Shown here one piece after another: positions 23,587 to 57,825 of a stretch of 64,000 nt of DNA (the stretch's first letter is position 1; each line of letters starts with the position of its first letter). The translations under genes were made by a program, and so were the position numbers. A model generated the notes under the pieces. That model was not told the DNA's origin. It did no database searches and saw only the letters and a list, made by a program, of their open reading frames with translations. This DNA is from Pseudomonas oryzihabitans (GTDB lineage Bacteria > Pseudomonadota > Gammaproteobacteria > Pseudomonadales > Pseudomonadaceae): contig NZ_CP021645.1 of assembly GCF_006384975.1 (NCBI RefSeq), positions 1,826,001 to 1,890,000 of the forward strand, read 5' to 3'.

Positions 23587-25035
23587 TTACTGGAGCAGAC
23601 TGAGCACCGATTGCGGCAATTGTTTGGCCTGGGCCAGGATCGCGGTACCTGCCTGTTGCAGCACCTGGTTCTTCGACAGATTCGCGGTTTCCGCGGCGTA
23701 GTCGGTGTCTTTGATCCGGCTACGGGCGGAGGTGGCGTTTTCCGAGATATTGGTCAGGTTGCTGATGGTGTTGTCGAAGCGGTTCTGCACCGCACCGAGG
23801 TCCGCGCGCTGGCTGTCGATGTTGGCCAGGGCCTGGTCGATCACCGACAGGGCTTTCTGGGCACCGTCAGCGGTGGAGATGTCGACGTCGGAGACCTTGC
23901 TCAGCGTGGACTTGGTGGCACCGAAGATCGCCGTGGTATCGCCGGTCATGGCGAAGGTCGTCGGCGAATCCAACTTGACATAGCCCATGCCCTGGCCACC
24001 ATTAGCCCTGACATCGACCGCGGCGCTGTAGGTACCGTCGGACCTCTGCGAGGCGACGTTAATGTTGCCTGAAGCGGTGCTGCCGGTGTCTTTGCCGAAT
24101 GTGATGTTCTCACCGGTTGCCGAGGTGATGGTCAGCTTCCTGGCTTGGCTATCGTAGTTGGCGGTGACACCCAACTTGGCGGCGTTGGCGTTGATCTGGT
24201 CGGCCATGTCCTTGGTGCTGGTCACCCCCACCAGGTTCAGCGAATTGCTACCGACCTGCATGGTCATGTTGGCCGAACCGCTGGAGATGGTGTCGGTCAC
24301 GGTCAGGACGGTACGTGCCGAAGCAGAGAGACCAGGGATCTGGCCGTTCATATTCCCTGCGATGGTCTTGGCGGAGTCACCGGAAGCATAGGTCACCGCC
24401 GTACTTTTGCCGCCCCCTACCAGGGTGATGCTGCCACTGGAAGTCAAGGCGCTGCCGCTACCGGCAACCACGCTACCGGCAGTGGTACCAGCAGAGCTAC
24501 CAGAACTGCTGCCAACCTGGTTGGAACCCAGAGCGGTGGCAGAGGTGTCCTTCAGGGTAACGTCGATGGTTTCGTAGGCGTTGGCGCCGATCTGGAAGCT
24601 GGTGGTGCCGAAGGAGCCGTCCAGCAGCTTGCGGCCACCGAAGGTGGTGGTCTGGGCGATACGGGTCAGTTCGTTCTGCTGCGCGGTCACTTCCTTCTGC
24701 AGGGCGGCACGGTCGGCATCGCTGTTCGAGCCGTTGGCGGACTGCACGGCCAGGTCGCGGATACGCTGCAGGATGTTGGTGGACTGCTGCATGGCGCCCT
24801 CAGCGGTCTGCGACAGGGAGATGCCGTCGTTGGCGTTGCGGGTCGCCTGGTTCAGACCGTTGATCTGGTTGGTCAGACGGTTGGAGATCTGCAGACCGGC
24901 GGCATCGTCCTTGGCGCTGTTGATGCGGCTACCGGTGGACAGGCGCTGCATGGAGGTGGCCAGGGAGCTGGACGCGTTCTGCAGGTTACGCTGGGTGTTC
25001 AAAGACGGGATGTTGGTATTGACGGTAAGGGCCAT
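23587..25035 (-). CDS. fliC: flagellin, tandem copy 1
   Basis: A 482-residue flagellin. The D0/D1 N-terminus ([17 protein letters not shown]) and C-terminus ([19 protein letters not shown]) are canonical, and the central region (about 175-390) is Ser/Thr/Gly-rich and surface exposed. It starts at 25035 after GGAGGACG, not at the longer frame to 25077. It has its own consensus sigma28 promoter at 25125-25151. The protein differs from copy 2 by one residue (K in STLSKVSD versus Q). Serines and threonines in the centre are likely O-glycosylation targets of the adjacent glycosyltransferase. Confidence 0.97.
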
Positions 25036-25054
25036 GGTGGCGTCCTCCAGTAGA
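23899..25054. repeat. identical flagellin block, copy 1
   Basis: This block appears to match 25661-26816 base for base (about 1156 bp). It runs from the central/3' part of fliC to 19 bases upstream of the ATG. Outside it the sequences differ: eight substitutions within 23683-23898, and unrelated upstream DNA apart from the promoter. Tandem duplication followed by gene conversion is the simplest reading. Confidence 0.9.
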
Positions 25055-25124
25055 GCCTCGTTTGCCTCAACCCTCACGCTAGAGCGGCTGGTTCAGGCGT
25101 CCCTGTGTTTCGCATTCAAGGAAT

Positions 25125-25348: not shown

Positions 25349-26797
25349 TTACTGGAGCAGACTGAGCACCGATTGCGGCAATTGTTTGGCCTGGGCCAGG
25401 ATCGCGGTACCTGCCTGTTGCAGCACCTGGTTCTTCGACAGGTTCGCGGTTTCCGCGGCGTAGTCGGTGTCTTTGATCCGGCTACGGGCGGAGGTGGCGT
25501 TTTCCGAGATGTTGGTCAGGTTGCTGATGGTGTTGTCGAAACGGTTCTGTACCGCACCAAGGTCCGCTCGCTGGCTGTCGATGTTGGCCAGCGCCTGGTC
25601 GATCACCGACAGGGCTTTCTGGGCACCGTCAGCGGTGGAGATGTCGACGTCGGAGACCTGGCTCAGCGTGGACTTGGTGGCACCGAAGATCGCCGTGGTA
25701 TCGCCGGTCATGGCGAAGGTCGTCGGCGAATCCAACTTGACATAGCCCATGCCCTGGCCACCATTAGCCCTGACATCGACCGCGGCGCTGTAGGTACCGT
25801 CGGACCTCTGCGAGGCGACGTTAATGTTGCCTGAAGCGGTGCTGCCGGTGTCTTTGCCGAATGTGATGTTCTCACCGGTTGCCGAGGTGATGGTCAGCTT
25901 CCTGGCTTGGCTATCGTAGTTGGCGGTGACACCCAACTTGGCGGCGTTGGCGTTGATCTGGTCGGCCATGTCCTTGGTGCTGGTCACCCCCACCAGGTTC
26001 AGCGAATTGCTACCGACCTGCATGGTCATGTTGGCCGAACCGCTGGAGATGGTGTCGGTCACGGTCAGGACGGTACGTGCCGAAGCAGAGAGACCAGGGA
26101 TCTGGCCGTTCATATTCCCTGCGATGGTCTTGGCGGAGTCACCGGAAGCATAGGTCACCGCCGTACTTTTGCCGCCCCCTACCAGGGTGATGCTGCCACT
26201 GGAAGTCAAGGCGCTGCCGCTACCGGCAACCACGCTACCGGCAGTGGTACCAGCAGAGCTACCAGAACTGCTGCCAACCTGGTTGGAACCCAGAGCGGTG
26301 GCAGAGGTGTCCTTCAGGGTAACGTCGATGGTTTCGTAGGCGTTGGCGCCGATCTGGAAGCTGGTGGTGCCGAAGGAGCCGTCCAGCAGCTTGCGGCCAC
26401 CGAAGGTGGTGGTCTGGGCGATACGGGTCAGTTCGTTCTGCTGCGCGGTCACTTCCTTCTGCAGGGCGGCACGGTCGGCATCGCTGTTCGAGCCGTTGGC
26501 GGACTGCACGGCCAGGTCGCGGATACGCTGCAGGATGTTGGTGGACTGCTGCATGGCGCCCTCAGCGGTCTGCGACAGGGAGATGCCGTCGTTGGCGTTG
26601 CGGGTCGCCTGGTTCAGACCGTTGATCTGGTTGGTCAGACGGTTGGAGATCTGCAGACCGGCGGCATCGTCCTTGGCGCTGTTGATGCGGCTACCGGTGG
26701 ACAGGCGCTGCATGGAGGTGGCCAGGGAGCTGGACGCGTTCTGCAGGTTACGCTGGGTGTTCAAAGACGGGATGTTGGTATTGACGGTAAGGGCCAT
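25349..26797 (-). CDS. fliC: flagellin, tandem copy 2
   Basis: A 482-residue flagellin, the first of the tandem pair in transcription order, with the same architecture as copy 1. It differs from copy 1 at one residue (Q in STLSQVSD) and at eight nucleotides near the 3' end, while the remaining 1.15 kb is identical. It has its own sigma28 promoter (26887-26913) and strong terminator (25299-25333), so both copies can be expressed separately. The distinct flanks and terminators argue against an assembly duplicate. Confidence 0.97.
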
Positions 26798-27140: not shown

Positions 27141-33061
<5,921 letters not shown>

Positions 33062-48935: not shown

Positions 48936-50291
48936 TCATGGCGCTCCCGTTTTCGCGGGCGATTCAGCGGACGCTTCCACCTCCTCGGCCGAAGGCCCTT
49001 CCGCGGCGACGGGTGTCTCGGTCGACGACTCGCTGTGCATCTGCTCCTGGACGACCTGGCTGTCGACCCGGGGATCCAGGGCCGCTGCCAAGGGTGAGCT
49101 GGTGGACCCTTCCGGCATGGGCACATGGTTCAGCGGCGCCTCGTCGACCAGGTGCTTGCCGGTCACCGCATCAGGGCGGATCCGCCAGATGAGCACGCCA
49201 CCGCACAGCACGACGAAGGCATAGAGCATGTTGGGCCCGATCAGATTCATCAGGGCCCCCACCGCCAGCGGACCGATACAGGCTCCCACGCCAAAGGTGA
49301 CCAGCAGCATGGCGCTCAGGGAGACACGGCGCTCTCCTTCGATGTGGTCATTGGAAAGCGCGACCGCCAAAGGATAGAGCACGAACTGCAGCAGACTGAC
49401 GATCAAGCCCAAGGGCAACAGCACCACTGGCGGAACGTGGGGTAGCACGGCCAGCGGCAAGGCGGCGATGGTGAGCGCTATGGCGATCGTGCGGATCAAG
49501 CCACTGCGATCGTGCCGATCCGACAGCCAGCCAATCGGCCATTGGGCGATCAGTCCGGCGAAGATGCAACAGGCCATGAACAGACCGATGCGTTCGGTAG
49601 GCAGCCCCTGGGCGCTGGCATAGAGCGGTGCCAGACCGTAGAAGGAGCCGATCACCAAGCCGGCGACCAGGGTAGTGGTGAGGGACTGCGGAACCCGCTG
49701 GATGAAGAAGGTGGGCTCCAGTGGCGCCGGCTTGAGCGGCGCCGGGTGAATCTTGCCGGTCACCGCCACGGGCACCAGGCACAGGGCGTAGCAGGTGGCG
49801 ACCAGCATCAGCTTGTCGACATCCAGATCGGGTGAAGCCACCAGTACCGTCTGGCCCAGGGCGAGGCCGAGGTAGGAAGCGGTCATGTAGCCAGAGAAGA
49901 CCTTGCCCCGCTCGCCGGGACCGGCCTGCTCGTTGAGCCAGCTCTCCAGGACCATGTACTGGCACATCATGCTCATCCCGATGAGCAGTCGCAGGCCCAG
50001 CCACACGGGCAACCAGGGCAGCAGGCCGATGCCGAGCACGGCCGCGCCGGCGATGCCGGCACAGGCCACATAGGCGCGGATATGGCCTACCCGGGCGATC
50101 AGCCGATGCCCCAGCTTGCCACCGATCACCAGCCCCAGGTAATAGGCGGCGGTCAGGGCACCGACCCAGAACCCCTGGACCTGCTCCGCCGCCAGGCGCA
50201 ACCCCAGATAGGTGCTCAGCAACCCGGTCCCGATCAACATCAACAGCGTCGCGAAATAAAGCCCGCGAAACGCCGACAGCACACGCCCCAT
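48936..50291 (-). CDS. MFS transporter with long acidic C-terminal tail
   Basis: A 451-residue major facilitator protein (YcaD-like) with 12 predicted membrane segments over residues about 1-385. Motif-A-like GGKLGHRLIARVG lies between helices 2 and 3, and QWPIGWLSDRHDR in the second half. The last about 65 residues are Ser/Glu/Pro-rich, acidic and low complexity, which is not typical of the family core. It lies beside flgZ in other pseudomonads too. The substrate is unknown. It is 44 bases after the glycan operon on the same strand, so read-through is possible. Confidence 0.85.
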   Translation of the reverse strand: MGRVLSAFRGLYFATLLMLIGTGLLSTYLGLRLAAEQVQGFWVGALTAAYYLGLVIGGKLGHRLIARVGHIRAYVACAGIAGAAVLGIGLLPWLPVWLGLRLLIGMSMMCQYMVLESWLNEQAGPGERGKVFSGYMTASYLGLALGQTVLVASPDLDVDKLMLVATCYALCLVPVAVTGKIHPAPLKPAPLEPTFFIQRVPQSLTTTLVAGLVIGSFYGLAPLYASAQGLPTERIGLFMACCIFAGLIAQWPIGWLSDRHDRSGLIRTIAIALTIAALPLAVLPHVPPVVLLPLGLIVSLLQFVLYPLAVALSNDHIEGERRVSLSAMLLVTFGVGACIGPLAVGALMNLIGPNMLYAFVVLCGGVLIWRIRPDAVTGKHLVDEAPLNHVPMPEGSTSSPLAAALDPRVDSQVVQEQMHSESSTETPVAAEGPSAEEVEASAESPAKTGAP

Positions 50292-50335: not shown

Positions 50336-51184
50336 TTAGCTTCGTCGTTGCGCTGCCAGCTGGGCGTCCTCGCCCAGGCGTGGATTGTAATGGCCTGCAC
50401 AGGCCTTCATCAGTACCTGTAGCACCGAAAGATTACCTCTTACGCTGCTGATCTTGGTGGGTACCTCGCCCTTCGGATAGCGTCTCACCGTGGGGAGTTC
50501 CACGCAGCGGTAACCCAATTTCGGCACGCGATAGGACAGATAGGCCAGCAACTCGTAGGTAGTGAATTCATCGCGGAACGGCGCGACCCGCGGATCCAGC
50601 AGCATGGCCCGGCTGTAGGCGCGAAAACCCTGGGTGGTATCCGTCCAGTGGAAACCCGAGGCCAGGCTCAGCATGGGCGCATGGATGAAGCGAATGGCGA
50701 AGTCGCGGGACTTGGGCGTGTTCTCCGCCACGCCACCGGCGAGGAAACGCGAGGCCTGGACGAAGTCGTAGCCCTGCTCGATGGCTTCGATGAAGCGCGG
50801 GATGGCGTCCGGATCGTCCTTGTCATTGCCATCGATGGTCACGATCGCGGTGTAGCCCTCATCGAGCACGAAGGCGTAGGCGCAGCGCAGCTGAGCACTG
50901 AGTTTGCCGGGTGCCGTCTTGACCAGCAGCCCGCGAACGCCCAGCTCTTGCAGCCGTTGCGGCTCCAGAGAGCCATCGGTACTGCCGCCGTCGATGATGA
51001 TGACATCGGCGATATCGGCGATCTTCAACGCCGCCATGCGTCGCAGCAGGCTGAGGATACGCTCGCCTTCGTTGATGACTGGAATCACCACGCAATGCGG
51101 GCGGCTGCGGCCGTTCCAGAAGGTCGTCGTGTAGCTGGGTACCTGCCAGAGGGCACGCTCGGCGGTGGGAATTGCAGTAGTCAT
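50336..51184 (-). CDS. glycosyltransferase family 2 (GT-A, soluble)
   Basis: A 282-residue GT2 protein, last gene of the seven-gene glycan operon. The ATG at 51184 has GGAGG 5 bases upstream; the longer frame to 51229 is rejected. Residues about 30-230 form the GT-A fold: VVIPVINEGERI, IIDGGSTDGS, and the metal-binding DGN in TIDGNDKDDPDAI (the usual DXD position). TTYELLAYLSYR and ELPTVRRYPKG follow. No C-terminal membrane helices are seen, unlike the other GT2 of the operon. Relatives act as polyprenyl-phosphate or sugar transferases. Donor and acceptor are unknown. Confidence 0.8.
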   Translation of the reverse strand: MTTAIPTAERALWQVPSYTTTFWNGRSRPHCVVIPVINEGERILSLLRRMAALKIADIADVIIIDGGSTDGSLEPQRLQELGVRGLLVKTAPGKLSAQLRCAYAFVLDEGYTAIVTIDGNDKDDPDAIPRFIEAIEQGYDFVQASRFLAGGVAENTPKSRDFAIRFIHAPMLSLASGFHWTDTTQGFRAYSRAMLLDPRVAPFRDEFTTYELLAYLSYRVPKLGYRCVELPTVRRYPKGEVPTKISSVRGNLSVLQVLMKACAGHYNPRLGEDAQLAAQRRS

Positions 51185-51197
51185 AGATCCTCCAGGG

Positions 51198-51554
51198 TCA
51201 ACCGACACGGGCCGTGATGAGGGCGACACCGGCGATGATCAGGACGATGCCTGCCGCCGTGGTCCAGGGAAAGGCTTCGCGAAAGATCGCTACCGACAGC
51301 AGCGCGACGCTGGCGATGGCCCCGGCCGTCAGTACCGGATGCGCCACGTTCAACGGCAGCTTGGCCAGGGCGGCGGCATAGAGCAGGAACGCCAGACCGT
51401 ACATGAAGAGACCCAGCCAGAACGGCCAGTTGGTCAGGGCAGCCATGGGATCGGCAGGACTGGGAAAACGGCGCGGTGGCAGCATCGCCATCTTCACCAG
51501 TACGCTCGCCGAGGCATTGGAGGCGATGCCCAGGATCAGGATCAGCCATTTCAT
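51198..51554 (-). CDS. small four-helix EamA/SMR-like membrane protein (possible lipid-linked sugar flippase)
   Basis: A 118-residue, very hydrophobic protein with four predicted membrane segments (WLILILGIASNASASVLVKM, FWLGLFMYGLAFLLYAAALA, VLTAGAIASVALLSVAIF, AAGIVLIIAGVALITA). It resembles the SMR/EamA half-size proteins such as ArnE/ArnF, which move undecaprenyl-linked aminoarabinose across the inner membrane. Start overlaps the upstream gene by ATGA. In this glycan operon a flippase role is likely but inferred. Confidence 0.78.
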   Translation of the reverse strand: MKWLILILGIASNASASVLVKMAMLPPRRFPSPADPMAALTNWPFWLGLFMYGLAFLLYAAALAKLPLNVAHPVLTAGAIASVALLSVAIFREAFPWTTAAGIVLIIAGVALITARVG

Positions 51555-52384
51555 GCGGCGGTCTCCGGCAAATCACGATAGGCCCGGATGGCGACCTGTA
51601 CCCCACGCTCCAGCGCGGCCAGGTTGGAGCCCTGCTTGGCCGGCAGCATCTCGATGCTGACGACCTGCTCGGGCAGCCGCCGGGTCAGGGCGAAGGCGAT
51701 CCCCTCATGGTTGGTACCCCCCTCCCCCAAGGTCACCAGGTCCGGCTCGCTGGCATGGACATGGCCGATCAACTCGGCATGCTCTTCGAGCACGCGAGCG
51801 GCATCTTCCTCGTTGATGGTCAGGGCGCCGGTGTCGAGCTGCATGCGGATCGCCGGATGAGCCACCGCTCGCACCACCGCCGCGGTGGAATCGCTGTCGA
51901 TCATGAAATTGGCGCCATAGCGTGGCGGATTGGGCTCCAGGCAGATGAGTACCCCATGGGTAGCGGCGACATCGCCCAGGCGCAGGAAGAACTCGCGGGC
52001 CTGCGCCAGCGCCTGGTCATCGCTCAAACCCGAGCGGTCACGATTGCGCGGCGAGCCGAACACCAGCCGAGTAGCGCCTAGCCCTTCGGCGACCCGGCAG
52101 ACGCCTTCCAGTTGGGCGAGCAACGCCTGCTGGACGTCCCCGTCACCGAAGACATTGAGCCCGGTCGTACCGAACAGCAGTGCCTGCATGCCGGTGATCT
52201 CGATGCCTCGGGCTTGCCACTGTTGGCGTACCGTCTGGATCTCCTGGGTCGTGGCCACCTTGGGATCGGCGAAGTACTTGCCGGGGGCGATATCGATGGC
52301 ATCCACCCGATACTGCTGCAGGATCTCGGCGACCATGGCGTCGTCGGGGACGTCCCAGGCGATATTGGAAATGGCGATGCGCAT
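51551..52384 (-). CDS. sugar phosphate isomerase/epimerase-like TIM-barrel protein
   Basis: A 277-residue xylose-isomerase-like TIM barrel (AP endonuclease 2 superfamily). Likely metal ligands are E150 (CLEPNP), D184 (LDTGAL), H210 (HVHASEPD) and E245 (SIEML). The start at 52384 shares its A with the preceding stop (TGATG), with GGAGGGG upstream. Members isomerise or epimerise sugars or inositols, or dehydrate keto-inositols. In this operon it would make or modify a sugar precursor. The exact reaction is unknown. Confidence 0.8.
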   Translation of the reverse strand: MRIAISNIAWDVPDDAMVAEILQQYRVDAIDIAPGKYFADPKVATTQEIQTVRQQWQARGIEITGMQALLFGTTGLNVFGDGDVQQALLAQLEGVCRVAEGLGATRLVFGSPRNRDRSGLSDDQALAQAREFFLRLGDVAATHGVLICLEPNPPRYGANFMIDSDSTAAVVRAVAHPAIRMQLDTGALTINEEDAARVLEEHAELIGHVHASEPDLVTLGEGGTNHEGIAFALTRRLPEQVVSIEMLPAKQGSNLAALERGVQVAIRAYRDLPETAA

Positions 52385-53172
52385 CACTGCCCCTCCGCCT
52401 TGATCACCGGAGGTTCCGACTGCGCATAGGCGCGCACCGCCAGCAGGGTGTCGCGGGCGCTGTACTGGTAGCCGTCGCGGCCGCCGAAGACTGCCGCGTG
52501 GACACTGCGGAAATCGTAGCGCGCCGGGGTGCCTTCCAGGGTATTGCCGAAGTCCCGGCCGAAGCCCAGGCGGGCGATGTCCGCCACGCTGATGGGTTCG
52601 GCGGTCAGGTGGACGAGCTCCAGGCCGGCCGCCTGGGCGGTCTGGATGTCGTAGCCGAGATTGACCATGGGGTAGAACTGGAAGACGCCGCGGCTTTCCA
52701 CCGCCTGCAGGTTGTTGTCGTTGAGCAGATCGTAGATCACGTTCTTGCGCAGCCCCGGCCCGACCAGGCCGGGCAAGCGAACGATCAGCGCCTTGGCGAA
52801 GTGCTCGCGCACGAACCGCTCCAGACGATAGCGATTGGCGCCGTAGGCATGCAGGCCCTCTTCGTCCACCGCCGTGTTTTCATCCACGCCGATCGGCTGC
52901 TTGAACACATCCACGGTGCTGATCAGCACGAAGGAGTCACACTCGATACGCGAGAGATGGCTGATCAGCCCATCGATCTTCTGGCGATCGGCCGCGGGAT
53001 CGCGGTTGGCGATCCACTTCTGCGCCGGCGCACCCGCGCAGATCACCTGGCCATAGGGCCGATCACCGATCTGCTCGATGTTGGTGGAGCGGAACAGTGC
53101 ACCGAAGGCCTTCTGCTTGAGCAGCGTCGACCCTACGAAGCCGCTGTACCCTATCAATGCGTCGGTCTTCAT
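52384..53172 (-). CDS. NAD-binding epimerase/dehydratase-like protein
   Basis: A 262-residue Rossmann protein of the extended SDR type. GYSGFVG (8-14) is the nucleotide motif and LISTVDVF (83-90) the usual strand with Ser/Thr. At the catalytic site Y110 is followed by R114 instead of the normal YxxxK lysine. That may change or abolish redox catalysis. It is about 50 residues shorter than standard NAD-sugar epimerases. The start at 53172 is preceded by AAGGGG; the longer frame to 53220 overlaps the neighbour. It probably acts on an unusual nucleotide sugar or aldehyde, or only binds. Relation to known epimerases is weak. Confidence 0.72.
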   Translation of the reverse strand: MKTDALIGYSGFVGSTLLKQKAFGALFRSTNIEQIGDRPYGQVICAGAPAQKWIANRDPAADRQKIDGLISHLSRIECDSFVLISTVDVFKQPIGVDENTAVDEEGLHAYGANRYRLERFVREHFAKALIVRLPGLVGPGLRKNVIYDLLNDNNLQAVESRGVFQFYPMVNLGYDIQTAQAAGLELVHLTAEPISVADIARLGFGRDFGNTLEGTPARYDFRSVHAAVFGGRDGYQYSARDTLLAVRAYAQSEPPVIKAEGQ

Positions 53173-53177
53173 GTTGC

Positions 53178-54809
53178 TCACCCCTTGGTCTTGAATCTCA
53201 GGCAATAGTCCGGTTGGCACTCCTCGACGGGATAATGGGCGTCCAGGTAGGCCTTGAGTCGTGGAAACTTGTCGTGCATGGAGAGGTTGTTCAGGTTGAA
53301 TGACCAGAACGTCGTCGAATACACCACCGCCGGTGGATCAGCGCGCTGCAGGTCGCTGAGCAGGTCCGCTTCGTAAGGCGGCGTGGCATACACCGGATAG
53401 ATGTACTTGGTGCAGGCCGGCAGATCCGTCACGCCGTTGATCACGCCGTTGTTGGCGAGGTCGAACACGCACTGGGCATGGCTCTCGAGCAGGCGCCGTG
53501 CGGCCCATTGCACGCCGGGCGTGGCCAAGGCGGCATCGTCAGGCATGGCGGACAGCTCCGGCACCCAGGCCAGTCCCTGGGACCAGACGCGCTCGACCGG
53601 CGACTTGTAGAGATTAAAGGCGGCCAACAGCAGCACCAGCGCTGCCAGCGCCGGTACCAGCAGGCGCTGGGTGAACGCCAGCAGCGCCCCCACCAGCAGC
53701 ACGGCGAAGAAGGGGGAAGGATTGAGCCCTACCAGGCCGAGCAAGATCGCCGCTGCGACACAGGCGAAAGCCGCCCGGGGATGAGCCGCGAGATCCCAGC
53801 CGCCGCTGCGCGCCAGGCGCTGACGGCGGGCGGCATAGAGCAAACTCAGCAGCGGCACCCAGAAACCCATCTGGATATGCTGGAAGTCCGCCCGGTTGAC
53901 GCCGATCTTGAAGAAGATGACCAGCAGTACGGCGAGGGCGCCAATCAGCGGCAAATCTTCATTCCAGCGCCACGGCCAAGGCAGGCAGCGGATCAGGGCG
54001 AAGCCCGCCAGCGCCGTGGGCACCGCCAGCAACAAGCTCAGGGCGAGCGGTCGGGCGCTCAGGCCGTAGCCCCACTGGGACGAGGTTTCGAGCAGGAAGG
54101 TCAGATTCTTGACGTAGTCGGTCAGGGCGAAGAAATCGGTCCCGAGACCAAGCCAGGCGACGGTCGCCAGAAAGCTCAGGATCGATAGCGCATGCCGCCG
54201 CTGCAGTAGCAGCGCGAGCAGCACGGCCGAGCCGATCGCCAGCACCCCGGCGATGCCGCGATCATAGGACCAGAACACATTGAAGCCCGCCGCCAGGCCC
54301 AGCAGCAGCTCACAGACCAGCCGTCCGGCCGTGGTCTCCACCTTGCGATGCAGGCAGAACAGGAACAGGGACAGCAGCAGGAACAGATCGCGGTAGCCCA
54401 CCACCTGAGTGGCCAACGCCCCCACTGCCACCAGCAGGATCAGCCGGGCGCGGCCCTTCGGCAACGGGCAGAGCAAGACGGCCGTTGACCACAGCAGCAG
54501 GGCTGCGAAGGTATTGCACAGGCCATAGAGGATCTGCGTCACCAGAAAGGTGTGCTGGGCGCCGAACCAGGTCTGGGCCAGCCAGACCGGCACGAAGTCC
54601 AGCCCACCGTGAATGGTGAAGGCATGCTCGCCCGGCTGGCTATGCAGCAAGGTCGGCAGGGTCGCGAAATACTCCCCCTGATGGAAGGGATCGAGAATGA
54701 CGCCCTTGCCGAACAGGAAGAAGTTGATGACGGAAAAAACCAGAACGGTGATGAAGCCGGCGCTGCCGGACGCCCCCCTGGGCGCCGCGTCAATGGAAGG
54801 GTTCGGCAT
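53178..54809 (-). CDS. polytopic membrane protein, possible GT-C-like glycosyltransferase
   Basis: A 543-residue integral membrane protein that I cannot assign to a named family. The start at 54809 follows TGGAGCG and overlaps the FAD gene by 20 bases; the frame to 54917 is an antisense-like extension. About 10-12 membrane segments run over residues 15-430. An acidic pair typical of GT-C first loops is not clear, but YDRGIAG and NRADFQH are charged loop motifs. The C-terminal about 110 residues are soluble, with cysteines in HAQCVFD, LPACTK and EECQPDYCL, and are likely periplasmic. Size and context suggest a polyprenyl-sugar-dependent glycosyltransferase or polymerase. This is inference. Confidence 0.7.
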   Translation of the reverse strand: MPNPSIDAAPRGASGSAGFITVLVFSVINFFLFGKGVILDPFHQGEYFATLPTLLHSQPGEHAFTIHGGLDFVPVWLAQTWFGAQHTFLVTQILYGLCNTFAALLLWSTAVLLCPLPKGRARLILLVAVGALATQVVGYRDLFLLLSLFLFCLHRKVETTAGRLVCELLLGLAAGFNVFWSYDRGIAGVLAIGSAVLLALLLQRRHALSILSFLATVAWLGLGTDFFALTDYVKNLTFLLETSSQWGYGLSARPLALSLLLAVPTALAGFALIRCLPWPWRWNEDLPLIGALAVLLVIFFKIGVNRADFQHIQMGFWVPLLSLLYAARRQRLARSGGWDLAAHPRAAFACVAAAILLGLVGLNPSPFFAVLLVGALLAFTQRLLVPALAALVLLLAAFNLYKSPVERVWSQGLAWVPELSAMPDDAALATPGVQWAARRLLESHAQCVFDLANNGVINGVTDLPACTKYIYPVYATPPYEADLLSDLQRADPPAVVYSTTFWSFNLNNLSMHDKFPRLKAYLDAHYPVEECQPDYCLRFKTKG

Positions 54810-55893
54810 CGAGGCGCTCCAGAGCATCGAAAATGTTATCGATCTTGCCGCCCAGCATCGAATAGCAACCGGGCAGTTCGGTATGCTGCTCGAAGAGAAT
54901 GGGACGGCCGTCGTCACCCTCGTTCTTCATCAGGATGGTCTTCACCTCGAACAGCGAATCCCGGTACTCCACCCGAGCCGCATCCGCCATGTAGCGCGCC
55001 ACGTCGCGGACCATCCAGTCCGCACGGGAAGCGCGATCGTAGTCGTCGAGGCGGGCGTAGGGATCGGTACCGTTGGCGTCTTCCCAGTTCATATGCGGGG
55101 TGTAGCGCACGTGCGACAGGGTATGCAGGCCCCGCGCCGGGAAGGGCATCATCGAGAAGAACGGACCGTCCATCACCGTGACACCGAGGTTACGCAGCTC
55201 CGGCGGCATCTCGACCAGCGCCATCTCGGTGATTTCGTGTCGCAAGCGCGTGGTCGTACCGGGGAAGTCCCCGGTGTACTGGTTGAGGCCGCTATAGGTG
55301 CAATTGAACAGATAGCGGCACTGCATTTCCTGCTGCCCCGCGTCCCCCACGACCTCGACGCTCAAGCCACCCGACGTACCGTGAATCGCGGTGACCCTGC
55401 TGTTGAACAGCAACTCGACCCCGACCGCATCGAGTTCGCGACTCACCTCGCCGGCAAGCACGGCGGAATTGAAGGCGTACTCTTCGGTGAGATAAACCGC
55501 CTCGATGAGACGGTTGTCGAAGAGTCGGGAAAACTCTTCGGGAGCCGGCTGTAGAGAGGCTTCGATACCTTGGCAGAAGCGCTCGAACTGCTTGGCGGTC
55601 ACCTTCGAGTTGTTGCGGGCGATGGCATACAACTTGGTGAAATCCCGCACCACGACATCAGGATAATCACGCAGGAATCTCGGCAAGTTAACGCGACTGC
55701 GAAAGGCGGTGACGAAACTACGCGGATAGTGATAACCGTTATGGACACGGGCCTGATTGTGATAGGAAGCACGCTTCAGCAAGCCGTCTTCCCGCTCTAT
55801 CAAGGTGACCTTGGCGAAGCCCCTTACCCGCATCAGATAAAGGGCCGTCATGGCGCCATAGAAGCCACCACCAATGACGATCGCATCTTTCAT
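54790..55893 (-). CDS. FAD-dependent oxidoreductase (DAO-like) in glycan operon
   Basis: A 367-residue flavoprotein of the D-amino-acid-oxidase/GlpO fold. The FAD motif GGGFYG (8-13) follows VI, and E35-R36 lies at the end of the second strand. NQARVHNGYHYPRS (about 46-59) and the C-terminal GCYSMLGGKIDNIFDALE are characteristic. GAGGA is 6 bases before the ATG at 55893. It would oxidise a C-N or C-OH bond of a sugar, polyol or amino sugar during glycan synthesis. The substrate is unknown. Eight bases follow the upstream GT2 stop, so they share one transcript. Confidence 0.82.
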   Translation of the reverse strand: MKDAIVIGGGFYGAMTALYLMRVRGFAKVTLIEREDGLLKRASYHNQARVHNGYHYPRSFVTAFRSRVNLPRFLRDYPDVVVRDFTKLYAIARNNSKVTAKQFERFCQGIEASLQPAPEEFSRLFDNRLIEAVYLTEEYAFNSAVLAGEVSRELDAVGVELLFNSRVTAIHGTSGGLSVEVVGDAGQQEMQCRYLFNCTYSGLNQYTGDFPGTTTRLRHEITEMALVEMPPELRNLGVTVMDGPFFSMMPFPARGLHTLSHVRYTPHMNWEDANGTDPYARLDDYDRASRADWMVRDVARYMADAARVEYRDSLFEVKTILMKNEGDDGRPILFEQHTELPGCYSMLGGKIDNIFDALERLDAEPFH

Positions 55894-55901
55894 GATCGTC
55901 C

Positions 55902-56921
55902 TCAGGCTACGCCACTTTGAGTTGCCGGCCTCACACTGCCGCCCTGGACCACTTCGACATTGAGCTTGTCCCGACGCGTCATGACCGCGCTGGTGAACTC
56001 CTGGGCCACGTGATACAGCGGGCCTTCGTTGGCTCTATGGGTCAACTGCAGGACATATTCGCCCAGGACCAGCAATACCAGCGATATCAGAAAGAACATG
56101 CCGGACTGCTGTAATGAAATGGTCACCCAGCCAGGCGCCACATCATCTTTGAACAGTCCTACCGCAATGACGTAGATGGAATAGAGCAGATTCGACATGG
56201 CTCCGACGATGGACAGAAAACTGACCATCCGCATCGGCTTGCGCGTGGACGACACCAGCAAGCGCGCGCCCTTGTCGAAGTTGCCGGACAGCCGCTTGGC
56301 CCGGCTACTGCGTGGCTGCGCGCTGTATTCCAGGTTGCTGCGGGAAAACCCTGCCGTGGCCGGTAAATGTCGATAGGTCAGGGCCGGCGCCGGGTGACGC
56401 AGGATGTAGTTGATGACCTTCTTGCTGAGCATCCGGTACTGGGGGGCATCCTTGGCGAGATCCACCCCGTTGAAACGTTTGTAGAGATAGTTGAAGCCCT
56501 TGGCGGACAGGTTGTACGAAAATGTCTGGCGAACTTTCTGCCGATTGTTGGCGAACACGACGTCGGTGCCCTCGGCCGCGTGCTTGAGCATCTCCGGCAA
56601 GAAGGCGATGTCGTCCGTTTCGGGATCGATAACTACCGCGAAGTCACCCAGCGCATTTTCCAGCCCCACCCAGGCTGCCGTATCGGAATCCACTTCCTTG
56701 GTCAGGGCATATACCTGGAGATTGGGCAATCCATTGATGCTGGTCAGTTGCTTCAAGCAGGCTACGCTGTCATCAGAGGAAGCGTTATCGACGATGATAA
56801 GTTCGTAGTCACTCACCAGTGGACCGACTACAGCTGCGGCGTGCTCCAAGGCGCTTTGCAGCTCGGTTGCCTGATTACGAACGACGAACACGACTGAAAG
56901 TAGGACGGGATAAAAGGCCAT
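55902..56921 (-). CDS. glycosyltransferase family 2 with C-terminal membrane helices (GtrB/DPM-like)
   Basis: A 339-residue membrane GT2, first gene of the glycan operon. Start at 56921 with GGAGG 8 bases upstream; the frame to 56957 is rejected. The GT-A domain (about 1-220) has VVFVVRNQATELQ, IIVDNASSDDS and VIDPETDDIAF (the DXD-like acidic site). Two hydrophobic helices near the C-terminus (SIVGAMSNLLYSIYVIAVGL and MFFLISLVLLVLGEYVLQL) anchor it as in GtrB or dolichol-phosphate mannose synthase-like enzymes. It probably loads a sugar on undecaprenyl phosphate. Confidence 0.85.
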   Translation of the reverse strand: MAFYPVLLSVVFVVRNQATELQSALEHAAAVVGPLVSDYELIIVDNASSDDSVACLKQLTSINGLPNLQVYALTKEVDSDTAAWVGLENALGDFAVVIDPETDDIAFLPEMLKHAAEGTDVVFANNRQKVRQTFSYNLSAKGFNYLYKRFNGVDLAKDAPQYRMLSKKVINYILRHPAPALTYRHLPATAGFSRSNLEYSAQPRSSRAKRLSGNFDKGARLLVSSTRKPMRMVSFLSIVGAMSNLLYSIYVIAVGLFKDDVAPGWVTISLQQSGMFFLISLVLLVLGEYVLQLTHRANEGPLYHVAQEFTSAVMTRRDKLNVEVVQGGSVRPATQSGVA

Positions 56922-57174: not shown

Positions 57175-57251
57175 TGGTGTCCCAGAGTGGGGTCGAACCA
57201 CCAACCTTCCCCTTAGGAGGGGGATGCTCTATCCAATTGAGCTACTGGGAC
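57175..57251 (-). tRNA. tRNA-Arg (anticodon CCT)
   Basis: A 77-nt cloverleaf on the minus strand with 3'-CCA encoded. Acceptor GTCCCAG pairs with CTGGGAC, and the discriminator is A. The D-arm is GCTC...GAGC. The anticodon stem TCCCC/GGGGA encloses loop CTCCTAA, giving CCT. The T-arm is GGTGG-TTCGACC-CCACT with one G-T pair. It lies 253 bases upstream of the glycan operon and is transcribed towards it, so the operon lies at the tRNA 3' side, a common island position. Confidence 0.95.
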
Positions 57252-57510: not shown

Positions 57511-57825
57511 ATGACCCAGGCCATTAGATCCTACTCAAGCCGTACCGCTGACAAATTCGTCGTGCGTCTGCCCGAAGGCATGCGAGAGCGCATCGCGGAT
57601 GTGGCCCGCAACCATCATCGCAGCATGAACTCCGAAATCATTGCGCGCCTCGAACAGAGCCTGCAGCAGGAAGGCGCCTTGGGCGACGAACCCGGGCTGC
57701 GCCTGGACAGTCCCGAGGTCACTGCCAACGAGCGAGAATTGTTGCAGCGGTTTCGCCAGCTGTCTGGTCGGCAGCAGAACGCGCTGATCTCCCTCATCGC
57801 CCACGACATCGACGCCGCTTCCTAG
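57511..57825 (+). CDS. amrZ: ribbon-helix-helix transcription factor AmrZ (AlgZ)
   Basis: A 104-residue Arc-family regulator almost colinear with P. aeruginosa AmrZ (108). The ribbon-helix-helix (about 15-55) contains [20 protein letters not shown] and [17 protein letters not shown], nearly identical to AmrZ. The C-terminal tetramerisation part [19 protein letters not shown] is also conserved. AmrZ activates alginate genes and twitching, and represses fleQ and c-di-GMP-related genes in Pseudomonas. fleQ and the whole flagellar cluster lie in the same window. It diverges from the tRNA and is convergent with mgtE. Confidence 0.95.

Follow-up and report, generated by a model that had tools for sequence, protein, structure and literature searches.

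Several described systems share parts of their design with the seven-gene operon treated here, which lies in a 64,000-nucleotide stretch of a Pseudomonas oryzihabitans genome (contig NZ_CP021645.1, positions 1,826,001 to 1,890,000; the whole stretch is hereafter called the window). The gtrABC cassettes for O-antigen glucosylation combine a small proposed flippase with four transmembrane helices (GtrA), a synthase of glycosyltransferase family 2 that forms undecaprenyl-phosphate glucose (GtrB) and a single GT-C-type membrane glycosyltransferase that varies between strains. For mycobacterial decaprenyl-phospho-arabinose there is a flavoenzyme and reductase pair, DprE1/DprE2, with Rv3789 as a small proposed flippase of the small multidrug resistance (SMR) type and AftA/Emb as GT-C transferases; DprE1 has a flavoprotein fold other than DAO. 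Lipid A aminoarabinose depends on ArnC, two SMR proteins (ArnEF), the GT-C protein ArnT and an amination route, and Escherichia coli YcjQ/YcjR/YcjS interconverts gulosides and glucosides by oxidation, TIM-barrel epimerisation beside the ketone and reduction, with two NAD-dependent sugar dehydrogenases and without glycosyltransferases. PMC11543891 places the latter trio in carbohydrate import and metabolism. According to PMC11127046, the three-component systems of Citrobacter youngae O1/O2 carry a pentofuranose derived from phosphoribosyl pyrophosphate on polyprenyl phosphate, may epimerise it on the lipid with a single short-chain dehydrogenase/reductase (SDR), ORF13, and use a MATE-family flippase and a GT-C enzyme of family GT136. 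The same paper presents DprE1/DprE2 and ORF13 as epimerases of polyprenyl-phosphate pentoses. SMR and GtrA proteins are both proposed exporters of lipid-linked sugars in known systems, and PMC11127046 points out that flippase activity has yet to be proved directly. Another GtrA-dependent cluster is described in PMC13390465.

The operon, with the gene order GT1-FAD-TM-EPI-TIM-SMR-GT2 (Table 1), is filed here as a new variant within polyprenyl-phosphate-sugar decoration, with related sets in many bacteria. By analogy, its proposed mode of working is best compared with that of gtrABC, of DprE1/DprE2 together with Emb/Aft, and of the Citrobacter three-component systems, which have an auxiliary epimerase. 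We consider it rather probable that it joins a synthase, a flippase and a GT-C protein, as in three-component-type glycan decoration, to a sugar-epimerising engine that would set up a rare sugar on polyprenyl phosphate. GT1 is homologous to GtrB, and just as gtrC varies between serotypes, the polytopic proteins near this core fall into many sequence groups (all such open reading frames (ORFs) near the core being counted, operon members or not). However, the window has SMR instead of GtrA, a GtrB homologue without DXD, a separate dolichol-phosphate-mannose-synthase-like GT2, and additional FAD, TIM and SDR genes; because GtrA is absent from the window and the GtrB DXD is missing, the operon is not filed as gtrABC. 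The flavoenzyme with its proposed reductase partner, the SMR protein and the GT-C protein recall the mycobacterial system, which is set apart by its other flavoprotein fold, while the operon has a DAO-fold flavoenzyme, an extra TIM-barrel epimerase and no phosphoribosyl entry enzymes. The GtrB/ArnC-like protein, the ArnF-resembling SMR and a GT-C protein of ArnT-like fold and size recall arn, but there is one SMR protein and not two, a redox engine replaces amination, and none of the seven proteins matched ArnA, ArnB or ArnD in Pfam or NCBIfam, for which reason arn was set aside. Relative to YcjQ/YcjR/YcjS, FAD and an SDR-like protein take the place of the two dehydrogenases. An undescribed surface glycosylation system had been suggested in the original prediction: we recognised no description of the gene set in searches of open-access PMC papers, which does not in itself prove it unpublished, and the surface acceptor is something that we infer.

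The seven genes as one conserved unit

The seven genes are a real operon and a conserved functional unit. They had been described as minus-strand genes separated by at most 13 bases or overlapping, and both the ORFs of the window (56921-50336) and the junctions read from the sequence agree: 8 bases lie between the GT1 stop and the FAD start, FAD and TM overlap by 20 bases, 5 bases separate the TM stop from the EPI ATG, EPI and TIM overlap by 1 base within TGATG, TIM and SMR by 4 bases within ATGA, and GT2 follows SMR after 13 bases. A sequence scan for promoter-like sites (1 against 2.1 expected) and terminator-like sites (6 against 6.0 expected) was uninformative.

A gene-neighbourhood search, which the original prediction had proposed, was based on a genome-collection scan with FAD that returned 561 relatives; the best 80 loci were fetched, so that the counts are biased towards close relatives. 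Genes were counted within 9 kb of FAD, taking GT1, FAD, EPI, TIM, SMR and GT2 as the six core genes and dropping matches below 100 bits except for SMR and GtrA, a cut that leaves out weak GT2 matches in L058 and L063 and the opposite-strand GT1 matches there (81-85 bits). GT1 was present in 79/80 loci, EPI in 73/80, TIM in 72/80, GT2 in 68/80 and SMR in 65/80, the complete six-gene core was found in 61/80, and core matches above 100 bits lay on the same strand throughout in all 80. EPI and TIM are adjacent in 72 loci and GT1 stands directly upstream of FAD in 77, which makes GT1-FAD the tightest pair of the core. The eight loci without EPI and/or TIM comprise four with an aldo/keto reductase (L096, L097, L114, L123; see below), three that stop at a contig edge (L082, L115, L117) and L084, which has 2.3 kb beyond FAD with a polytopic ORF. 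In a mirror-tree comparison over 62 loci, without a housekeeping control, correlations between the distance matrices of the six core genes ranged from 0.70 to 0.92.

FAD occurs in 21 of 248 Pseudomonadaceae genomes and EPI in the identical 21, and the single genome with two FAD genes also has two EPI genes; the shared distribution has a probability of 6e-31 under random placement, with kinship ignored. In a phylum sample of 398 genomes, FAD was found in six, EPI in seven and both in five, one of which (G509) carries them on separate contigs. One EPI-only genome has a 3.5-kb contig that begins 0.4 kb before EPI and holds EPI-TIM-SMR-GT2, the other a more diverged FAD-EPI-TIM trio with FAD below threshold, and the FAD-only genome has a distant homologue (L158). 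The operon is more than a chance arrangement, since the gene set is met again in other genera and FAD and EPI share one distribution among the 248 genomes. One Pseudomonadaceae locus (L042:8892-9972) has an otherwise complete set with FAD split across two reading frames, likely a pseudogene or a sequencing error.

Table 1. Operon genes and immediate neighbours, in window coordinates
Feature	Position	Strand	Description
GT1	55902..56921	-	339 aa; GtrB/ArnC-like membrane homologue of glycosyltransferase family 2, ~2 C-terminal transmembrane helices, DXD lost
FAD	54790..55893	-	367 aa; DAO-fold flavoenzyme; proposed oxidase/dehydrogenase of a sugar secondary hydroxyl
TM	53178..54809	-	543 aa; GT-C-fold protein; proposed periplasmic transferase
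EPI	52384..53172	-	262 aa; extended-SDR-like; proposed ketosugar reductase
TIM	51551..52384	-	277 aa; AP_endonuc_2 TIM barrel; proposed ketosugar epimerase
SMR	51198..51554	-	118 aa; SMR/EamA protein with four transmembrane helices, ArnE/ArnF-like; proposed lipid-sugar flippase
GT2	50336..51184	-	282 aa; soluble dolichol-phosphate-mannose-synthase-like family 2 glycosyltransferase; proposed polyprenyl-phosphate-sugar synthase
MFS transporter	48936..50291	-	directly downstream of operon
tRNA-Arg (CCT)	57175..57251	-	upstream neighbour of operon

Protein families and the proposed pathway

The protein classes first named for the operon were upheld by Pfam, NCBIfam and PDB profiles, the polytopic protein being GT-C-like by its predicted model. 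In the pathway that we propose, GT2 would act at the cytoplasmic face and load polyprenyl phosphate with a hexose, which may be glucose supplied by UDP-glucose. At the membrane, together with the GtrB-like GT1, the flavoenzyme would next turn one of the secondary hydroxyls close to the phosphate into a ketone. The metal-dependent TIM barrel would then invert the carbon beside the ketone and EPI would reduce the ketone, with or without inversion, after which SMR (GtrA in several alphaproteobacteria) would flip the lipid-linked sugar and TM would transfer it to a periplasmic acceptor, e.g. lipopolysaccharide or another envelope glycan. With 2-keto chemistry TIM could invert C3, while with 3-keto chemistry as for YcjR it would be C4 or C2, and the possible outcomes from glucose include altrose, allose, gulose and mannose. 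The original prediction of a complete make-oxidise-flip-transfer pathway holds in that the operon is one unit with a candidate for loading, oxidation, flipping and transfer, but the FAD oxidation is probably half of a redox epimerisation, to which TIM and the SDR would contribute the other steps; the view that FAD and TIM are additions to a gtrABC-type set stands.

FAD matches PF01266 (DAO), and the structure nearest to its model is glycerol-3-phosphate dehydrogenase, which acts at the membrane and oxidises the carbon neighbouring the phosphoester carbon, a likeness that suggests C2 of a polyprenyl-phosphate hexose as the oxidation site. TIM matches D-psicose/D-tagatose 3-epimerases and the 3-keto-D-glucoside 4-epimerase 6WN6, which we take to be YcjR, in PDB profiles. 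Its E150, D184, H210 and E245 align with the E-D-H-E metal/catalytic residues of ketose 3-epimerases, and at least 97% of 80 sequences retain these four and H208. EPI shows a weak RmlD-like match (PDB profiles) and has G7, G10, G13, S84, Y109 and R113 (numbering from the residue after Met) in 80/80, corresponding to GxxGxxG, Ser and YxxxR. As RmlD represents a nucleotide-sugar reductase family, FAD, TIM and the SDR might instead turn an NDP-hexose into a rare NDP-sugar for GT2 to load, with flipping and GT-C transfer to follow, and this would accord with the established origin of most rare sugars at the nucleotide-sugar level and with the position of EPI-TIM ahead of the glycosyltransferases on five alphaproteobacterial plasmids. 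However, the tightest pair of the core (GT1-FAD, 77/80) associates the flavoenzyme with a GtrB-like protein of the membrane, and its nearest fold is that of a membrane-associated enzyme. The polyprenyl-linked pentose parallels in PMC11127046 act after loading, and we regard conversion at the nucleotide-sugar level as unlikely, while granting it some weight beside epimerisation on the lipid.

The choice of loading enzyme departs from the original prediction, which had assigned this step to the GtrB-like GT1. In PDB profiles GT1 matches 5EKE/5EKP (E 3e-24 to 6e-24) and ArnC 9HWJ (E 1.6e-22), but DXD is present in 0/86 GT1 sequences and the catalytic domain is degenerate in roseobacter- and Sphingomonas-type members, so that GT1 is the weaker candidate, whereas GT2 is the strongly conserved member of the pair and matches the profile of a solved synthase, 5MLZ, at E 1.4e-12 with an alignment through the SRxxxGG region. 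GT1 is probably a membrane partner of the FAD enzyme, or possibly a non-canonical synthase; its tight pairing with FAD and its lost motif point to a pseudo-GtrB that would present the lipid-linked sugar to the flavoenzyme. Both proteins do match Glycos_transf_2 above the Pfam cut-off, and GT1 keeps D45, D50, D103 and D104 in 79, 82, 81 and 77 of 86 sequences, respectively, which would suit two active synthases that supply two different sugars or a disaccharide while FAD makes a stable keto-sugar end product; the missing DXD and the degenerate members make this arrangement quite improbable.

SMR matches PF00892/PF00893, has no PF04138 (GtrA) match at E <= 0.1, and finds its best NCBIfam match in ArnF, with 33.6 bits where the cut-off is 99. 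Structure prediction for the 543-residue TM, another step originally proposed, gave a GT-C-like fold: of 50 structural matches listed, 46 are to GT-C transferases, AftB and EmbB being among those aligned, and the other four are to GPI-transamidase chains. A conserved DxFHxGE...HGxxD region follows the first transmembrane helix, and the predicted model fits a GT-C membrane fold in which acidic residues come after that helix. No GT-C family was reported by Pfam at E <= 1 for 14 members of the TM family, and comparison with PDB sequences yielded nothing useful for TM and one chance-level match for a 1053-aa family.

Variant loci and possible exchange of modules

In distant loci the gene order is shuffled and the genes remain together. 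Plasmids of Sagittula, Roseobacter, Sphingomonas, Cereibacter and Ruegeria have the order EPI-TIM-GT1-FAD-GtrA-GT2, and GtrA replaces SMR in five alphaproteobacterial plasmids (L028-L031 and L033, by annotation; L028 checked by Pfam); Azospirillum has EPI-TIM-GT2-FAD-GT1. A Psychrobacter plasmid of 10,782 bases carries EPI-TIM-SMR-FAD-GT1-GT2 followed by a 479-aa polytopic protein, which is not equated here with TM of the window, and the remaining annotated genes of the plasmid serve only replication and mobilisation. The Cereibacter GT2 forms a single protein with a PMT_2 domain. In Ruegeria conchae (L033, 14576-16228) a VPLPA-CTERM exosortase, not a GT-C-like protein, comes after GT2.

In the aldo/keto variant (4/80 loci), GT1-FAD is followed by another family 2 glycosyltransferase and an aldo/keto reductase, with a GtrA-like protein after them. 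Pfam confirmed the reductase in three loci (L096, L097 and L123, with L114 outside the test) and GtrA in L097 and L123, and D-Y-K-H, the usual motif of aldo/keto reductases, was read by eye. A mechanism of oxidation followed by reduction predicts that another kind of reductase, here an aldo/keto reductase, can stand in for SDR and TIM, and because the four loci fall in more than one clade of the FAD tree, repeated module exchange is suggested. What the analysis shows comprises the genes of the set and their families, the folds predicted for their products, the motifs that are conserved, the co-occurrence and the swaps; the exchanges of SMR with GtrA, of many polytopic groups and of SDR plus TIM with the aldo/keto reductase fit the proposed roles. 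A bolder version, which we consider quite possible without holding it probable, is a swappable engine for rare hexoses on polyprenyl phosphate: a GtrB-derived pseudo-glycosyltransferase would present the sugar to a flavoenzyme that perhaps feeds the respiratory chain, one or two stereocentres would be fixed by TIM and SDR or by an aldo/keto reductase, one precursor would yield products of the altrose, allose, gulose or mannose type, and the whole would spread as cassettes, plasmids included, with an interchangeable GT-C protein.

Several points weigh against epimerisation on the lipid. Every reaction, the lipid-linked rather than nucleotide-sugar substrate, the sugar and the acceptor are all matters that we infer. 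The FAD fold is common to amine oxidases and so does not force an alcohol substrate, EPI has Arg at the SDR catalytic Lys position in 80/80 (YxxxR for YxxxK), and GT2 has DGN instead of DXD, in the form DGNxKD, in 76/76 sequences. The Azospirillum locus has neither SMR nor GtrA, and six of the 80 loci have the other five core genes with no SMR match, one of them with a weak GtrA match ~9 kb off. Diverged FAD-EPI-TIM trios also stand without recognised glycosyltransferases, in L169 (7994-18272) with a DUF4432 gene and genes for sugar import of the ABC type as neighbours, and in L159 (Mesorhizobium) among transposases with TIM on the opposite strand, which means that the engine need not act on a lipid-linked sugar; the L169 trio is possibly a relative of the engine that works in catabolism. 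Given the Arg of EPI, the DGN of GT2, the loci without SMR or GtrA and the L169 trio, the engine might act on free sugars or on nucleotide sugars. That the trio serves sugar catabolism or metabolite repair beside independent glycosyltransferases, as the import genes next to the L169 trio might suggest, is nevertheless very improbable, given that the six core genes are united in 61/80 loci, on a 10.8-kb plasmid and in shuffled orders, with correlated distance matrices.

Genomic setting and meaning

The window belongs to a 5.36-Mb single-contig genome; when named relatives are compared by their FAD gene, Pseudomonas rhizoryzae (99%) and P. oryzihabitans (93%) come closest. The MFS gene adjoins the operon in own-genus loci, is absent beside the other loci of the same comparison and is probably not part of the system; an mgtE-like gene (labelled by eye) lies upstream, and both neighbours recur in own-genus loci. 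The tRNA-Arg first noted beside the operon was confirmed, and between it and the mgtE-like gene lies a small Arc-like ribbon-helix-helix protein (57511-57825), a possible regulator of the region. A genomic island at the tRNA was rejected for this genus, since the tRNA 3' end (23 bases, up to three mismatches) has no second copy in the window and the operon GT2 is present in 13/13 genomes of the genus; no integrase was noticed by eye in the window ORF list, and the tRNA neighbourhood looks incidental. Outside this genus, carriage on plasmids shows that the system is mobile. Viral contigs scanned with the FAD protein alone, which reaches close relatives only, gave no match, and phage records gave one fragmentary match (55% of the query at 36.7% identity). 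In PHROGs, GT1 and GT2 match GtrB-like families and SMR a QacE family, with no match for the other four proteins at E <= 0.001; a phage serotype-conversion reading of the operon is at most weakly supported and was set aside.

Other glycan-related genes were also observed. A classical-looking GtrA/GtrB-like pair coexists with the operon in its own genome, as a separate GtrA adjoining a GtrB-like gene (G000:C1:4955256-4956499; L167, L002). The window also holds a flagellar cluster (21597-47096), where inspection of the ORF list by eye identified flagellins together with hook-associated and basal-body proteins; two adjacent flagellin-like ORFs (23587-25077 and 25349-26797) begin with the same residues in their printed starts. 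Beside the flagellins, the region 27141-33001 contains an ORF of 1566 aa that has methyltransferase matches and weaker ones to glycosyltransferases, as well as a dehydratase-like gene of the Polysacc_synt_2 type, and we take it to resemble a flagellin glycosylation island.

The authors of PMC11127046 state that, besides ORF13 and the DprE1/E2 type, no epimerases in O-antigen side-chain glycosylation were known to them. If the proposed pathway is true, redox epimerisation of lipid-linked sugars would not be confined to the pentofuranoses of mycobacterial arabinan and of Citrobacter and its relatives, but would also be carried out by a module of wide occurrence whose flavoenzyme is unrelated and which has an epimerase in addition. 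It would add a GT-C sequence family without a Pfam match and a possible pseudo-GtrB, and it would predict unrecognised rare sugars in the surface glycans of strains across many genera.

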